From: Vulgatibacter incomptus
GTDB taxonomy: Bacteria > Myxococcota > Myxococcia > Myxococcales > Vulgatibacteraceae
Length of the DNA stretch: 64,000 bases
NCBI RefSeq assembly: GCF_001263175.1
Contig: NZ_CP012332.1
Location: 800,001 to 864,000, forward strand
Direction of reading: 5' to 3'
Shown: positions 2,832 to 64,000 of the stretch, in pieces
How positions within the stretch are numbered: position 1 is the first letter of the stretch
Layout: every line of letters begins with the position of its first letter
Program-made: the position numbers and the translations under genes
The notes under the pieces: model-generated
What the model was told of the DNA's origin: nothing
Seen by the model: only the letters and a program-made list of their open reading frames with translations
Database searches by the model: none

Positions 2832-5720
<2,889 letters not shown>

Positions 5721-20202: not shown

Positions 20203-20235
20203 TTGACAGTCCAGGGCCTGCTTGTTAGGTAGAAT
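20203..20235 (+). promoter_or_regulatory. Possible promoter before the TPR gene
   Basis: A consensus TTGACA (20203-20208) is followed by TAGAAT (20230-20235), a good -10, but the spacing of 21 bases is long; a shifted -10 at 16-17 bases matches poorly. It lies about 70 bases before the chosen start. Confidence 0.3.
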
Positions 20236-20302
20236 TTCTCGAATTTTCGCCTCTCTGCCCACCGACCAGCCGATCGAACGCCGGTCGAAGTGCCCAGGAT
20301 CC

Positions 20303-22789
20303 ATGGCCGATTCCACCTCCGGGACCAAGCCTTCCGCCGCCGAGCTGGCGGGGCTCGAGCATTCATTCGCCGTCGACCCCACCTCCGACGCCTACCGTCC
20401 CCTGGCCGAGGCCTACCTCGCGATGGGCCGGTACATGGAGGCGATGGTCGTGGGGAGGGCCGGCGCGCGGGCGCATCCGACTTCGCCGGTTCCCAGGGTA
20501 ATCCTCTCCCGAGTCTACGGCGAGCAGGGCCGGGAGAAGCGCGCCCTCGAGGAGCTGGACGCGGCGCTCGAGGTCGGCGGGGAGGACGTTCCGACGCTCC
20601 GATATGGCGCCGAGCTCCGCTTCCATTGCGGCGATGCGGCAGGCGCTAGGAGCCTCCTCGAGAAGGCCCTCGCGCTGGCGCCGGCCGATGAGGCGGTCGC
20701 AGAGCTGGCCCGGAAGAACGGCGTGGAGCTGAAGCCGCCCACGCCCGCGGTGCAGACGCCGGTGGTGCAGACGCCGGTGGTGCAGACGCCGGCGATGCAG
20801 ACGCCGGTAGTACAGCCGGCGCCCGCCGCGCAGGCTCCGCTCGCGACGCAGGGCACGCCGGTGTTGCAGCCGGCCGCCGGCGTGCAGGCTCCCCAGGCGA
20901 TGCAGGGCGCGCCGGTGTTGCAGCCGGCCGCCGCCGTCCAGGCTCCCGCGACGCAGGGCGCGCCCGTGCTCCACCCGGCGCAGGGTGGGGCGCCCATCCC
21001 GGTCTTCCCGAACGCCAATGGCGGACAGCCGGCTTCGCAGCCCGCCGAGGCCACCAGCTATGCGGGCCGCGCTGCCGCTGCGCCGGCGACCGATCACGGC
21101 CGCACGCCCGCGACGAAGCCCGCCGCTAGGGCCGCCCTCGATCCGTCTGCGTGGGATACGGACGACGACGACGTCGCTCCGCGGCGGGGTTCCGGCCGCC
21201 AGTTCCTGACCCTCGTCGTCTCCGTGGCGCTGGTGATCGCCGGCCTCGGCGGCTGGCATTTCCTCACGAAGATGCGCGAGGCCCGCGAGCGGGAGATCGC
21301 CAAGCTCCTCGAGGAGACCAACGAGCAGCTCCGCAAGGACACCTACGCGTCCTACAAGGCCGCTTCGGCCTCCGCTGACCGGATCCTGGAGCTCGAGGGC
21401 AGCAACTACGTGGCCCACGCCTACCTCGCGTACATCAACGCGCTCCGCTGGGGCGAGCAGGGCGACGGCGACGACTTCAAGCGGCGCGCGAGCGAGGAGC
21501 TCGCCGCGGCGAAGAAGGCCGGAGAGTCCCACGGCCGGATCGTCGCCGCCGAGGCCTACATCAAGTTCTTCGACGGCGATCCCAAGGGCGCCGAGGAGGC
21601 GATCGGCAAGGTCCTGGAGTCGGGCCAGCGCTCGGGTCTGCTCTACACCACGCTGGGGACCATCCAGATGTGGGCCGGCGAGCTCGACAACGCCGCCGCC
21701 TCGCTGAAGCAGGCCCAGGCCGTCGAGCCGAACAGCGTGCGCGTCCTCGCCGCCCTCGGGCAGCTCAACCGCCGCCGCTCCATGGACACCGACGCCTGGA
21801 CGTTCTACGACTCGGCCCTCCGTATCGATCGCGATCACGCCGACTCGCTCCTGGGCAAGGCGCTCCTCGTCCTCGACGCCAACGAGATCGATCGTCCCAA
21901 GTCCGATCAGGAGAAGCTCCTCCGCGAGGCGGAGTCCCAGATCGACAAGGTCCTCCACCTTCCCGACGGCTCCATCTCCGCGCGGCAGCTCGCCCTGGCG
22001 AAGTTCGCGCGGGCCCAGCTCCTCTTCGCCCACGACCAGGCGGACGAGGCGGCGCGTTTGGAGCGCGAAGCCTTCACCCTCGACCCGGGCAACCCCGACA
22101 TCCGGCTGATGAAGGGACGTCGCCTGCTGCGCGAGAAGAACGTCGACGAGGCCGTGGCGGAGATCCGCCGCGCCATCGAGATCGAGCCCCGGCGCGCGAG
22201 CTTCTACGTGGATCTCTCCAGAGCGCTGCTCGCCAAGCCCGGCGGCGCCAAGGAGGCGGTGACCGCGCTGGAGAAGGCCCTCGCTACGTTCCCCGACAGC
22301 GGCCGCATCCACGTGCTGCTGGGCGACGCCAACCGCGCGGTCCCGTCGATCGACGCGGCGCGGAAGGCCTACGAGCGGGCCATCGAGGTCGAGAGCGGCA
22401 AGATGCCCGAGGCCCGCGCCAAGCTCGGCGCGATCTGGAGGGAGAAGAAGGAGTACGCCAAGGCCCGCGAGGAGCTCGAGAAGGCGCTCAAGGAGCTCGG
22501 CCTGGCGGCCACCGGCCCGACCCTCGCGCTGGCGCTCACCGAGCTCGGCCGCACCTACGACGAGGAGCCGAACCGCGACGTCCAGCAGGCCTTCGAGCGC
22601 TACGCGAAGGCCATCTCGGCCTCCGAGAGCTACGCGCCCCCGTACTTCCTGATCGGACGGATCTCCGCGGGTCAGCGCGATCGCGAGCAGCAGAAGCAGG
22701 CCATCGAGTCGCTGGAGAGCTACATCCGCCTCGCGCCCAAGGGCGAGTTCGCCGAAGAGGCGCGGTCGTTGCTCGCCCGGCTGCGGTAG
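20303..22789 (+). CDS. Large TPR protein with Val/Gln/Pro repeat linker and one membrane segment
   Basis: An 828-aa protein. N-terminal TPR-like helices (~10-145, AEAYLAMGRYMEAMVVGRAG) face a low-complexity linker (~148-275) built of two tandem repeats (VQTPV and a longer QAP..QGAPVLQPAA unit). One membrane segment follows (~307-327, FLTLVVSVALVIAGLGGWHF), then a C-terminal array of about ten TPR-type repeats (for example AAASLKQAQAVEPNSVRVLA and EAVAEIRRAIEIEPRRASFY). The N-terminal part is likely cytoplasmic and the long TPR array periplasmic, acting as a protein-binding scaffold. ATG 20303 is chosen; an upstream TTG at 20222 gives 27 extra residues without support. The partner is unknown. 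Confidence 0.82.
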   Translation: MADSTSGTKPSAAELAGLEHSFAVDPTSDAYRPLAEAYLAMGRYMEAMVVGRAGARAHPTSPVPRVILSRVYGEQGREKRALEELDAALEVGGEDVPTLRYGAELRFHCGDAAGARSLLEKALALAPADEAVAELARKNGVELKPPTPAVQTPVVQTPVVQTPAMQTPVVQPAPAAQAPLATQGTPVLQPAAGVQAPQAMQGAPVLQPAAAVQAPATQGAPVLHPAQGGAPIPVFPNANGGQPASQPAEATSYAGRAAAAPATDHGRTPATKPAARAALDPSAWDTDDDDVAPRRGSGRQFLTLVVSVALVIAGLGGWHFLTKMREAREREIAKLLEETNEQLRKDTYASYKAASASADRILELEGSNYVAHAYLAYINALRWGEQGDGDDFKRRASEELAAAKKAGESHGRIVAAEAYIKFFDGDPKGAEEAIGKVLESGQRSGLLYTTLGTIQMWAGELDNAAASLKQAQAVEPNSVRVLAALGQLNRRRSMDTDAWTFYDSALRIDRDHADSLLGKALLVLDANEIDRPKSDQEKLLREAESQIDKVLHLPDGSISARQLALAKFARAQLLFAHDQADEAARLEREAFTLDPGNPDIRLMKGRRLLREKNVDEAVAEIRRAIEIEPRRASFYVDLSRALLAKPGGAKEAVTALEKALATFPDSGRIHVLLGDANRAVPSIDAARKAYERAIEVESGKMPEARAKLGAIWREKKEYAKAREELEKALKELGLAATGPTLALALTELGRTYDEEPNRDVQQAFERYAKAISASESYAPPYFLIGRISAGQRDREQQKQAIESLESYIRLAPKGEFAEEARSLLARLR
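20750..20980. repeat. Tandem repeats inside the TPR gene (15-base and 54-base units)
   Basis: Four 15-base units (GTGCAGACGCCGGTG type) at 20750-20809 encode VQTPV/A. They are followed by units of 54 bases at 20831-20884 and 20885-20938 and a 42-base partial copy at 20939-20980, encoding QAP...QGAPVLQPAA. All are in frame, so copy-number change would alter linker length only. Confidence 0.85.
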
Positions 22790-22879: not shown

Positions 22880-23179
22880 TTAGAAGACGTCGTCCTCGGG
22901 CTCGGCCTCGGCGTCGTCCTCGGCGTCTTCCTCGGCGCCCTCTTCTTCGCCGAAGGACTCCTCCTCTTCGTGCTCGTGTGCCTCCTCGCCCTCTTCGACC
23001 TTGGCGCGCTTTGGCGCAGGGGCGGGCTTGGCGGCCTTCGGCGTCGGGGGCGGAGCGGGCTTCGCGCGCGGGTCGGCGCCGCACTTGGGACACGCAGGGG
23101 AAGGCTTGTTCATGTCGTAGAACTTGGCGCCGCACTTCCAGCATTCGTGCCGGGTGCCGAGATCTTTCGCTGGGCTCAT
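22880..23179 (-). CDS. FYDLN-motif, acidic-tailed small protein (TIGR02300-like)
   Basis: A 99-aa protein. The N-terminus has two CxxC pairs around the name-giving motif: CWKCGAKFYDMNKPSPACPKCG (C13-C34 region, given here only as motif). A Pro/Lys/Ala linker follows, and the last 40 residues are almost entirely Glu and Asp, ending DDVF. This is the layout described for the FYDLN acid family (TIGR02300), whose function is unknown to me. The four cysteines likely bind zinc. It is divergent from the zinc-ribbon/GYF gene, with a good promoter in between. Confidence 0.85.
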   Translation of the reverse strand: MSPAKDLGTRHECWKCGAKFYDMNKPSPACPKCGADPRAKPAPPPTPKAAKPAPAPKRAKVEEGEEAHEHEEEESFGEEEGAEEDAEDDAEAEPEDDVF

Positions 23180-23300: not shown

Positions 23301-24239
23301 ATGCGCTTCGCATGCGAGACCTGTCACTCCCGCTACGATCTGGCCGATGAGAAGGTGCTCGGGAAGCGGCTGAAGGTCCGCTGCAGGAAGTGCGGGGCCA
23401 CGATCAGCGTCCAGGGCGAGCGCGCCCCTGCTCTTGAAGTCGCTCCGACTGGACCTCTTTCGAGCCCTCCCGCCGAACCCGACGTCGCGCGTTCGATTGA
23501 CGCCGAACTTGCGCTCGACCCCGCGGAACCCGAGATCGCCCGTTCGATTGAGGCCGATCCTGGGATCGACCCCGCCGAACCCGACGACCCTTCCTCGAGG
23601 GACGCCGATCCTGCGACTGCGCCCGCCGAAGTCGAGGTCGCGCGCTCGGTCGACGACGGACCGGCGATCCTTTCGGCCAGGCCCGAGGTTCGGAAGGAGC
23701 CCGAAGTCGCCGAAGGCGGAGCGACGTCGCGGCAGGAAGCGCGGGAGAGCGGTGCATCGGCGCTCTTGGCGGTGCTCCGGCTTCGGCCCAAGGCCGGGTT
23801 CGAGTGGTTCGCCATGGTCGACGGCGAACAGCTCGGGCCGTGGTCGGATCGCGAGCTGCACGACGCCGTCGAGCGCGGCGACGTCGGCCCTCTCACCTTC
23901 GTCTGGCACGAGGGGATGCCGGATTGGGAGCGGTTCTCCGCCGTACGCCCGGATGCGTCGCCGTCGGACCATCATGAGGTGGAACCGGCTGTGGACGTGG
24001 CCGAGGAGGCGCCGTCCGATTCGACCGACGTTGAACCGGCGGAGGAATCGTCGTCCACGCCAAGTGATGCGGGTCTCGACTCCACGAGCCTGGACGCGCT
24101 CAACTTCGGCGATGAGGCCCTGGCTGCAGAACCTCCCGTCCCCGCACGCCGTGGCGCAATCGTCGTGGGCGTGAGCGCCGCGGTCCTCGTCGCCCTTCTC
24201 GTCGCGATGGCCTGGCTCGTGTTTGGCGGGGCGCCGTAG
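23301..24239 (+). CDS. Zinc-ribbon and GYF-like domain protein with C-terminal membrane anchor
   Basis: A 312-aa protein. The N-terminus (~1-36) is an MJ0042-type zinc ribbon: CETCHSRYDLADEKVLGKR with a second CRKCG pair, four Cys in all. A linker follows with four 17-residue imperfect repeats (PAEPxxARSI type, ~57-124). Then a GYF_2-like domain (~172-220, WFAMVDGEQLGPWSDRELHD with the GPW hallmark and WHEGMPDWERF). A second acidic linker leads to a single C-terminal membrane helix (~287-308, IVVGVSAAVLVALLVAMAWL). In Myxococcus the zinc-ribbon plus GYF pair is found at the cytoplasmic end of the gliding protein GltJ/AgmX, which contacts MglA; this protein lacks the rest of GltJ. Function is inferred only as protein interaction at the membrane. 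Confidence 0.8.
   Translation: MRFACETCHSRYDLADEKVLGKRLKVRCRKCGATISVQGERAPALEVAPTGPLSSPPAEPDVARSIDAELALDPAEPEIARSIEADPGIDPAEPDDPSSRDADPATAPAEVEVARSVDDGPAILSARPEVRKEPEVAEGGATSRQEARESGASALLAVLRLRPKAGFEWFAMVDGEQLGPWSDRELHDAVERGDVGPLTFVWHEGMPDWERFSAVRPDASPSDHHEVEPAVDVAEEAPSDSTDVEPAEESSSTPSDAGLDSTSLDALNFGDEALAAEPPVPARRGAIVVGVSAAVLVALLVAMAWLVFGGAP
23469..23672. repeat. 51-base repeat, four copies, in the zinc-ribbon/GYF gene
   Basis: Four consecutive in-frame units at 23469-23519, 23520-23570, 23571-23621 and 23622-23672, each starting CCCGCxGAA and encoding 17 residues beginning PAE. The first two are the closest pair; units three and four have diverged. Confidence 0.75.
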
Positions 24240-24283: not shown

Positions 24284-24514
24284 TCAGAGCTCGAAGTCGC
24301 CGTCGTCGCCGTCGATCAGCGCGTTCCGCTTCTCGGCGAGCCTCTGTCGCGCGACGGCGGTCTCCGCCTCGTCGCGCCCCAGTTGGAGAAGGATCCGGTC
24401 ACCTTCGGCGGTCTCGGCGGGAAGACAGCGAGCCGGCAGCGTGCAGACCCCGCCGTCATCCAGCTCGATTCGGGCGAGTCCTTCGTCGATGCTGTCGATG
24501 GTTCCTCGAATCAT
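24284..24514 (-). CDS. DUF3006-like small protein
   Basis: A 76-aa cytoplasmic protein beginning MIRGTIDSIDEGLARIELDD, then CTLPARCLPAETAEGDRILL and a charged helical end. This is the DUF3006 pattern (a short beta-rich start with 'I-D-R/S-x-E-x-x-A-x-L/I-E', then 'P-x-x-x-L-P-x-x-x-x-E-G-D'). DUF3006 genes often sit next to ComEC-like metallo-beta-lactamase genes, as here: its first 59 bases overlap the end of that gene on the same strand. GGAAGGCGG directly precedes the ATG. Biochemical role unknown. Confidence 0.78.
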   Translation of the reverse strand: MIRGTIDSIDEGLARIELDDGGVCTLPARCLPAETAEGDRILLQLGRDEAETAVARQRLAEKRNALIDGDDGDFEL

Positions 24515-25361
24515 CCGCCTTCCCCTGGGTCTCGATCCTCTCGACCCTCATCGTCTTTCCGTCGGTGGTCACCCGCAGGCTCCCGTCGCGATCGGTGCGC
24601 CAGATCTTCGCGCCGGCGCGCTCGAGCCTTTCGATCGCTGCCGGTGCCGGATGCCCGTAGTCGTTCCCTGCCCCGCAGGATACGATCGCGTCTCGCGGCC
24701 CGACCGCCCGAAGGAATTCGGCCGTGGACGAGTGCCGGCTCCCGTGATGCGCCACCTTGAGGAGATCCGCGCGCAGCGAGCTCCCGCTCTCGCGAAGGAG
24801 CCAGCGCTCCGTCTCCGGCTCCGCGTCCCCGGTGAGGAGCCATGCGATCTGCCCGAAGCGGATCGCGAGGACGATCGAGTTCGCGTTCACCGAACGCTTG
24901 CCCCCGAGGCGCGGCTCAGGCGGCGCCAGCACCTCCGCTACAGCGCCGCCTCCGAGGTCGATCTTCGTGCCCCGCCGGGCGATCCGAAGGGGGATCTTCC
25001 GGCGCAGCAGCTCGTCGAGGATCTGCTCGTAGGTCCGCGTGGGATGGTCCGTCCCCGGGTCGAGCACCAGGCGGGGCGGGGCGGCCGCTATCGCCGCGCG
25101 GACGCCCCCGACGTGATCGAGGTGGGGGTGGGTCATCACCAGGAGGTCGAGCGCGTCGATCCCGCGGTCGCGAAGCCTCTTCGCCATCCGCTCACCGGCT
25201 TCGGGAGGGCCGGCGTCGATTAGGACTCGCTTCCCCGTCGGGGAGGTGAGCAGCATCGCGTCACCCTGTCCCACGTCGAAGACCTCGAGCGTGAGGGGCG
25301 CCGCCCACGCCCACGAGGGAGCGAGGAGCAGGAGCAACGCGAACAGACGGAAAAAGCGCAT
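24456..25361 (-). CDS. Exported ComEC/Rec2-like metallo-beta-lactamase fold protein
   Basis: A 301-aa protein equal to the C-terminal hydrolase domain of ComEC on its own, preceded by a signal peptide (MRFFRLFALLLLLAPSWAWA-AP). Metal-binding motifs are intact: DVGQGDAMLL, TGKRVLIDAGP, THPHLDHVGGV (HxHxDH, ~98-103), LLTGDAEPE, LLKVAHHGS and the late GHP. Such domains are metal-dependent phosphodiesterases/nucleases; in competence ComEC is thought to degrade the non-transported DNA strand. The signal peptide puts this one in the periplasm or outside. The basic tail (QHRRRTRPNRAG) overlaps the DUF3006 gene. No competence channel gene is nearby. Confidence 0.87.
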   Translation of the reverse strand: MRFFRLFALLLLLAPSWAWAAPLTLEVFDVGQGDAMLLTSPTGKRVLIDAGPPEAGERMAKRLRDRGIDALDLLVMTHPHLDHVGGVRAAIAAAPPRLVLDPGTDHPTRTYEQILDELLRRKIPLRIARRGTKIDLGGGAVAEVLAPPEPRLGGKRSVNANSIVLAIRFGQIAWLLTGDAEPETERWLLRESGSSLRADLLKVAHHGSRHSSTAEFLRAVGPRDAIVSCGAGNDYGHPAPAAIERLERAGAKIWRTDRDGSLRVTTDGKTMRVERIETQGKADDSRNHRQHRRRTRPNRAG

Positions 25362-25533
25362 CGGCGCGCACGATAGCAGGCGCGCAGCTCATTGGCCCGG
25401 CGCATGGGCACCGCCCGCCGGTAGCGCCAACGAGAGGCATCCCTCGATCGCATTCGTGGCGCGGCGCTCGGCTCGATTGCGGCCCGATCCCGCACAGCAT
25501 ACGATGCGGGCCCATTCCGAACGGGGACCCTCC

Positions 25534-26208
25534 TTGACGCTTCCGCGCACGGCCCGCGAGCTCGCCGCTCTCATCGACCACACGATCCTGAAGCCCGACG
25601 CCACCGCCGCCGAGGTCGAGAGAACCTGCGAGGAAGCCCGCAGCCATGGCTTCGCGACGGTCTGCGTGAGCTCCTCCTGGATCCCCCTCGTGGCGGCGCG
25701 GCTGGAGGTGAGCGGCGTGCTGCCCATCGCCGTCGTCGGCTTCCCCTCCGGCGCCGCCGCAGCAGAGGCGAAGGCCTTCGAGGCGTCGTGGGCGGTGCGC
25801 CACGGCGCCCGGGAGATCGACACCGTGATCCACCTCGGCGCGCTCAAAGGGGGCGACGACGCGGCGGTCGTCCGCGACCTGGCCGCCGTCGTGGAGGCGG
25901 CGCGGCCGTGGCCGGTGAAGGCGATCCTCGAGTGCGCTGCCCTCGACCAGGAGCAGAAGGAGAGGGCGTGCCGGCTCGCGGTCGAGGCAGGGGTCGCGTT
26001 CGTCAAGACGTCGACCGGCTTCGGCCCCGGCGGCGCCACGGCGGACGACGTCGCGCTCCTTCGGCGCCTCGTCGGCGACGACGTCGGCGTCAAGGCCTCG
26101 GGCGGTATCCGGACCACGGAAGATGCGCTTCGGATGATCGCCGCCGGCGCGAACCGGATCGGCGCCTCGGCCTCGGTGGCGATTGTCGCGGGAATGTCGG
26201 CATCGTAG
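25534..26208 (+). CDS. deoC: Deoxyribose-phosphate aldolase
   Basis: Splits 2-deoxyribose 5-phosphate to glyceraldehyde 3-phosphate and acetaldehyde in deoxynucleoside breakdown. It is 224 aa from the TTG at 25534 (GGGGA six bases upstream); an ATG at 25504 would add ten residues. The class I aldolase barrel is clear: LIDHTILKPDATAAEVE, VVGFPSGAAAAEAKAFEA, EIDTVIHLGALKGGD, VKAILECAAL and the Schiff-base lysine in FVKTSTGFGPGGAT, then VKASGGIRT. It is first in the nucleoside salvage cluster, eight bases before the phosphorylase gene. Confidence 0.94.
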   Translation: MTLPRTARELAALIDHTILKPDATAAEVERTCEEARSHGFATVCVSSSWIPLVAARLEVSGVLPIAVVGFPSGAAAAEAKAFEASWAVRHGAREIDTVIHLGALKGGDDAAVVRDLAAVVEAARPWPVKAILECAALDQEQKERACRLAVEAGVAFVKTSTGFGPGGATADDVALLRRLVGDDVGVKASGGIRTTEDALRMIAAGANRIGASASVAIVAGMSAS

Positions 26209-63813: not shown

Positions 63814-64000
63814 ATGGGCTTTCGGGAGCACCTCGAAGAGATCTGCCAGGTGGACGGCGCCGTCGCGGCGAGCGTCATGGGCTTCGACGGGATCGCGATC
63901 GACACCGTGACCGCACCGAACCAGGCCGTCGACGCCGAAACGCTGATGATCGAGTACTCCGGCATCCTGGGCCAGGTGCGCAAGGCCGCCGAGCTGCTCA
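63814..64000 (+). CDS. Roadblock/LC7 domain protein, N-terminal part (3' end outside window)
   Basis: Begins MGFREHLEEICQVDGAVAAS with AAGGGGAGG in front, followed by VMGFDGIAIDT, the roadblock fold start (helix, then a beta strand with 'x-G-x-D-G-x-x-I/V'). Proteins of this family in myxobacteria include MglB, the GAP for the polarity GTPase MglA. Only 62 residues are visible, so it cannot be told whether it is MglB itself or another roadblock protein. The gap 63661-63813 shows no gene. Confidence 0.8.
   Translation, partial: MGFREHLEEICQVDGAVAASVMGFDGIAIDTVTAPNQAVDAETLMIEYSGILGQVRKAAELL

Follow-up and report, generated by a model that had tools for sequence, protein, structure and literature searches.

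The window analysed here, a stretch of 64,000 nucleotides of Vulgatibacter incomptus, corresponds to bases 800001-864000 of a single contig of 4,350,553 bases and contains, at genome position 823301, a gene encoding a membrane-anchored protein (referred to as P0001) in which a zinc ribbon (ZnR), a linker, a GYF domain, a second linker and a transmembrane (TM) helix follow one another. The positions of these parts and of the surrounding genes are given in Table 1.

Table 1. Features of P0001 and of its surroundings, numbered from the first base of the window
Feature	Position	Strand	Evidence
TPR protein upstream of FYDLN_acid, retained in the sister genome G162	20222..22789	+	Profile match, synteny
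FYDLN_acid gene, divergent from P0001, conserved in the order	22880..23179	-	PF09538 (54.3 bits), synteny
P0001, ZnR-linker-GYF-linker-TM protein, 312 aa	23301..24239	+	ATG to stop ORF, Pfam, AlphaFold
Zinc ribbon, aa 1-35, C5/C8/C28/C31	23301..23405	+	Zn_ribbon_4 (PF13717), AlphaFold
PAE repeats, 4 x 17 residues, aa 57-124, predicted disordered	23469..23672	+	Periodicity, AlphaFold
Predicted helix, aa 142-160, directly N-terminal of GYF	23724..23780	+	AlphaFold, moderate confidence
GYF_2 domain, aa 169-215	23805..23945	+	Pfam PF14237, 7z3c match, Foldseek
Predicted C-terminal transmembrane helix, aa 286-304	24156..24212	+	Hydropathy, AlphaFold
DUF3006 small ORF, in the space downstream of P0001	24284..24514	-	PF11213 (40.1 bits)
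Metallo-beta-lactamase-fold protein, conserved neighbour	24456..25361	-	PF00753, synteny
DeoC aldolase, conserved neighbour	25390..26208	+	PF01791, synteny
MglC gene start, runs off the window	63814..64000	+	7ct3, E 3.9e-31 (L005:1793-2170)

Both domains of P0001 scored above their Pfam cut-offs, the zinc ribbon with 42.8 bits (cut-off 30.3) and the GYF domain with 49.5 bits (cut-off 25.8), and the nearest sequences of solved structure were the zinc ribbon (7zok, E 6e-8) and the GYF domain (7z3c, E 1.1e-7) of M. xanthus AgmX/GltJ. All four zinc-ribbon cysteines are invariant across 25 relatives. The zinc ribbon (pLDDT ~95) and the GYF core (pLDDT ~93) were modelled confidently by AlphaFold, together with helices at residues 142-160 and 293-307, the remainder being predicted as disordered. 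Foldseek placed the GltJ GYF domain first and the ZitP zinc finger (2nb9) second, with E-values that are modest because the two domains are small. These results bear out the original prediction that the ZnR and GYF domains represent the cytoplasmic pair of GltJ, and its description of a tail-anchored protein of 312 residues also stands: a single C-terminal TM helix is predicted at about residues 286-307, with eight residues between the helix (286-304) and the C terminus, and an RR pair at 282-283 on the N side of the helix suggests an N-in orientation. The four 17-residue PAE repeats that it had named were likewise recovered, with 18 of 34 identities at an offset of 34 (two units), a periodicity reached in none of 2000 shuffles, and a third copy that has drifted. 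All three structured parts of P0001 carry a strong coding signature, with a third-position GC of 0.90 in the zinc ribbon, 0.90 in the GYF domain and 0.89 in the TM helix, against 0.69-0.80 in the linkers.

FYDLN_acid loci were collected in a phylum-wide search and 60 of them were read. A complete neighbouring gene encoding a zinc ribbon and/or a GYF domain was present at ~35 of these besides the P0001 locus, with products of 345-675 residues that all run well past the TM helix. The order FYDLN_acid (-), ZnR-GYF (+), metallo-hydrolase (-) and DeoC (+) is common to the P0001 locus and, for example, locus L067, the paralogue of which (L067:8901-10610) has 569 residues, a zinc ribbon, a GYF domain at 110, a TM helix at ~328-346 and an AgmX/PglI tail. 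P0001 has the gene position of this paralogue, beside a divergent FYDLN_acid gene and followed by the metallo-hydrolase and DeoC genes, and the same ZnR and GYF subtype (ADEKV.GK..KVRC; WFAMV..KQ/EQ.GP). In contrast to P0001, the FYDLN-locus paralogue is a protein of 500-650 residues with a juxtamembrane motif, a long Pro-rich periplasmic part and an AgmX/PglI tail, and it lacks the PAE repeats. A linker motif like ESTRVVSLADVERIR was observed in some FYDLN-locus paralogues (L067, L122, L124, L126-L128, L136).

No AgmX-type tail follows the TM helix of P0001: the tail family (NF033768) scored above its cut-off at seven places in the genome, none of them at P0001, and neither a tail nor a remnant of one was found in the DNA that follows the gene. 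The notion that P0001 is a frameshifted longer gene was rejected in view of this missing remnant and of the space downstream, which is filled by the DUF3006 and metallo-hydrolase genes. Among the ~36 complete FYDLN-locus genes, P0001 alone ends at its membrane helix. Two other candidate truncations, L125 (428 residues, no AgmX end) and L061 (365 residues), were set aside, as neither ends at the TM helix and each may be the effect of a frameshift or of the assembly, and the ~1-kb gaps of family f3 genomes, considered as sites of short ZnR-GYF genes, hold another gene. The proposal that P0001 is a stand-alone protein not tied to the Glt machine thus stands in part: the gene does lie outside the glt genes, but it sits at the place of a full-length paralogue and is not a free-standing minimal invention.

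In a tree built on the zinc ribbon plus the GYF domain (94 columns), the GltJ proteins, including that of the same genome (P0002), formed one group with a support of 97/92. P0001 was placed on the other side (support 96/87), beside paralogues of the FYDLN locus and of the f2 type (93/78 at the inner node), on a long end branch of 1.28, and with these 94 columns the AU test did not formally reject a placement with GltJ (p 0.07). Synteny is the stronger argument, outweighing the tree, for P0001 as the counterpart of the FYDLN-locus paralogue.

A search of the genome for glt genes identified GltJ, GltE, GltG and a GltI-like protein. P0002 has 641 residues and scored 551.3 bits against the GltJ model (NCBIfam NF033761, cut-off 450), and its gene adjoins a frame of 3798 residues in the gltI position (C1:1969610-1981006); GltG scored 892 bits (cut-off 650) and GltE 353 bits (cut-off 225). 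P0001 reached 72.4 bits against NF033761 and was rejected as the GltJ of this genome, and the presence of these proteins means that it is therefore no replacement for GltJ. Like GltJ/AgmX (NF033761; 7zok, 7z3c), it has a cytoplasmic zinc ribbon followed by a GYF domain and one TM helix; unlike GltJ, it does not adjoin gltI and lacks both the periplasmic AgmX/PglI tail and the linker block described below. Two further gltE/gltG-like clusters in the genome, at 1161-1165 kb and 2958-2968 kb, fall below the gliding cut-offs and are probably paralogous envelope machines. Two other proteins of the genome were noted: one of 308 residues (L009:775-1701, ~2.525 Mb), with a TM helix, an AgmX/PglI tail (61.9 bits), no zinc ribbon and a GYF match too weak to pass the cut-off (17.6 bits), is complementary to P0001 in its combination of modules, and one of 404 residues (L016:1450-2664, ~0.70 Mb) has a zinc ribbon, one TM helix and no GYF domain, a ZitP-like layout.

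An MglA homologue is present in the genome, encoded in a canonical mglB-mglA pair at 2.59 Mb (MglA E 1.1e-100 and MglB E 1.4e-67 against the M. xanthus proteins), 1.77 Mb from P0001. The roadblock gene at the end of the window, 40 kb from P0001, had been taken for MglB-like; its match is MglC, and its neighbours, read by eye, are pilQ-like and efp-like genes. A second gene for an MglA-like GTPase was observed at L023:1159-1983 (~3.98 Mb); the gene immediately after it encodes a sensor histidine kinase-like protein that has an additional N-terminal domain.

Between the zinc ribbon and the GYF domain, about 25 GltJ linkers carry a nearly invariant block, LGTPPEGGLFTDvEEDEIGAVFDQVLS, with the pattern LGTPPEGGLFTD.EEDEIGAVFDQVLS. 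P0002 retains DDELGAAFDTMVS, a match that is weak (4.1 bits) yet outranks 400 shuffles, and DEELGSAFDHAF and DDELGQAFDNAF are kept in two further GltJ proteins; no match was found in P0001 and nothing comparable in the FYDLN-locus group. MglA-GTP reportedly binds a cytosolic motif of GltJ, rather than simply the ZnR-GYF pair, after which the zinc ribbon recruits MglB, and the near-invariant block may be this motif. The block is absent from P0001, and MglA binding by P0001 is therefore unsupported. This bears on the proposal that P0001 is an MglA effector or receptor, its ZnR-GYF part docking MglA-GTP (or MglB or MglC) at the membrane without involvement of the Glt machine. The domain pair is indeed homologous to that of GltJ, which is listed among the MglA effectors (PMC12288465), and MglA and MglB are both encoded; however, besides the missing block, P0001 groups with a paralogue other than GltJ, is unlinked to the mgl genes and falls far short of the GltJ model, so that this role appears quite improbable and, judged from sequence, MglA is not favoured as a candidate partner.

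The second Foldseek match points to a different role, that of a ZitP-like polarity adaptor whose zinc ribbon would bind a polar organiser and localise pili or chromosome factors. P0001 shares with ZitP an MJ0042-type zinc ribbon, N-terminal in P0001, in a single-pass membrane protein, and 2nb9 was also matched in sequence with the family profile (E 0.0025). However, ZitP is not known to have a GYF domain and carries a periplasmic DUF, its C-terminal part differing from that of P0001, and such a role for P0001 is highly improbable.

The sister genome G162, the only other member of the family examined, lacks P0001 together with the DUF3006, metallo-hydrolase and DeoC genes (L098 around 5165-5471), and its locus keeps the TPR and FYDLN genes and two downstream genes. 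Decay therefore also fits, and the main rival explanation is that P0001 is a relic which, having lost its periplasmic arm, is left as a frame with little or no function and is heading for a loss of the kind seen in G162. The long branch, the weaker codon bias of the linkers and the loss of the gene or of its GYF domain in many f3 genomes are consistent with such decay, as is the finding of no close relative in a scan of 84,980 species genomes, from which the record of P0001 itself was possibly left out. Against this, the frame is intact across 312 codons, the four cysteines and the GYF core are retained, the high third-position GC falls exactly in the zinc ribbon, the GYF domain and the TM helix, and the protein ends cleanly at the latter. 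A relic is considered unlikely, although less so than the two roles discussed above.

A second short form was found in genus g10 of family f3, where the gltJ position is occupied by a ZnR-GYF-TM protein of 256 (G046), 254 (G047) or 211 residues (G045); a partial copy in G044 has the same end, so that a short GltJ is present in all four g10 genomes (L062:8578-9348, L180, L181, L182). In G046 the gene directly follows that of a 2840-residue TPR protein in a gltI-gltJ locus. Like P0001, these proteins end just past the membrane, with no periplasmic tail and no ELGxAFD motif in the linker; unlike P0001, they belong to the gltI-gltJ locus and to the GltJ subtype and have only 211-256 residues. GltJ of G053, from the sister genus of g10, is of full length (540 residues). 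Differences between the G046 and G047 genes fall mostly at third codon positions (41/45/91 by position; dN 0.19, dS 0.63, dN/dS ~0.3). The tail-anchored ZnR-GYF architecture is kept in g10 under purifying selection and can therefore be functional, and it seems to have had at least two origins, in two different paralogues.

From the computed domains, predicted membrane helix, synteny, tail loss and absence of the GltJ block, P0001 is best explained, with a probability of roughly 0.52, as a form, truncated at the C terminus, of a GltJ paralogue that occupies the corresponding gene position across the order; it would act as a cytoplasmic adaptor that is tethered to the membrane and has no periplasmic arm. 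That paralogue normally has the layout ZnR-linker-GYF-linker-TM-periplasmic AgmX/PglI tail, the periplasmic arm of which is missing in the P0001 lineage. Two putative cytoplasmic binding heads would be left, a zinc ribbon of the ZitP/GltJ type and a GYF domain that would hold a short peptide of a partner. A flexible acidic repeat linker of ~130 residues would space the two heads, and a single helix would anchor them in the inner membrane. Judging from its domain types, P0001 may recruit cytoplasmic partners to the membrane, and, unlike a TonB-like GltJ, it would presumably be unable to pass force or a signal through the envelope. A broader proposal, which we regard as rather doubtful, is that short ZnR-GYF proteins constitute a distinct functional class with at least two origins (GltJ and the FYDLN-locus paralogue), in which the TonB-like arm was dropped and a trans-envelope transducer became a receptor at the inner membrane that serves a polarity or small-GTPase module.

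P0001 draws attention to a little-studied and unnamed paralogue of GltJ that occurs across the order in a conserved gene neighbourhood, and it separates, in nature, the cytoplasmic half of a GltJ-type protein from the periplasmic half. Should the short forms prove functional, they would offer ready tools with which to probe the ZnR-GYF pair without force transmission.
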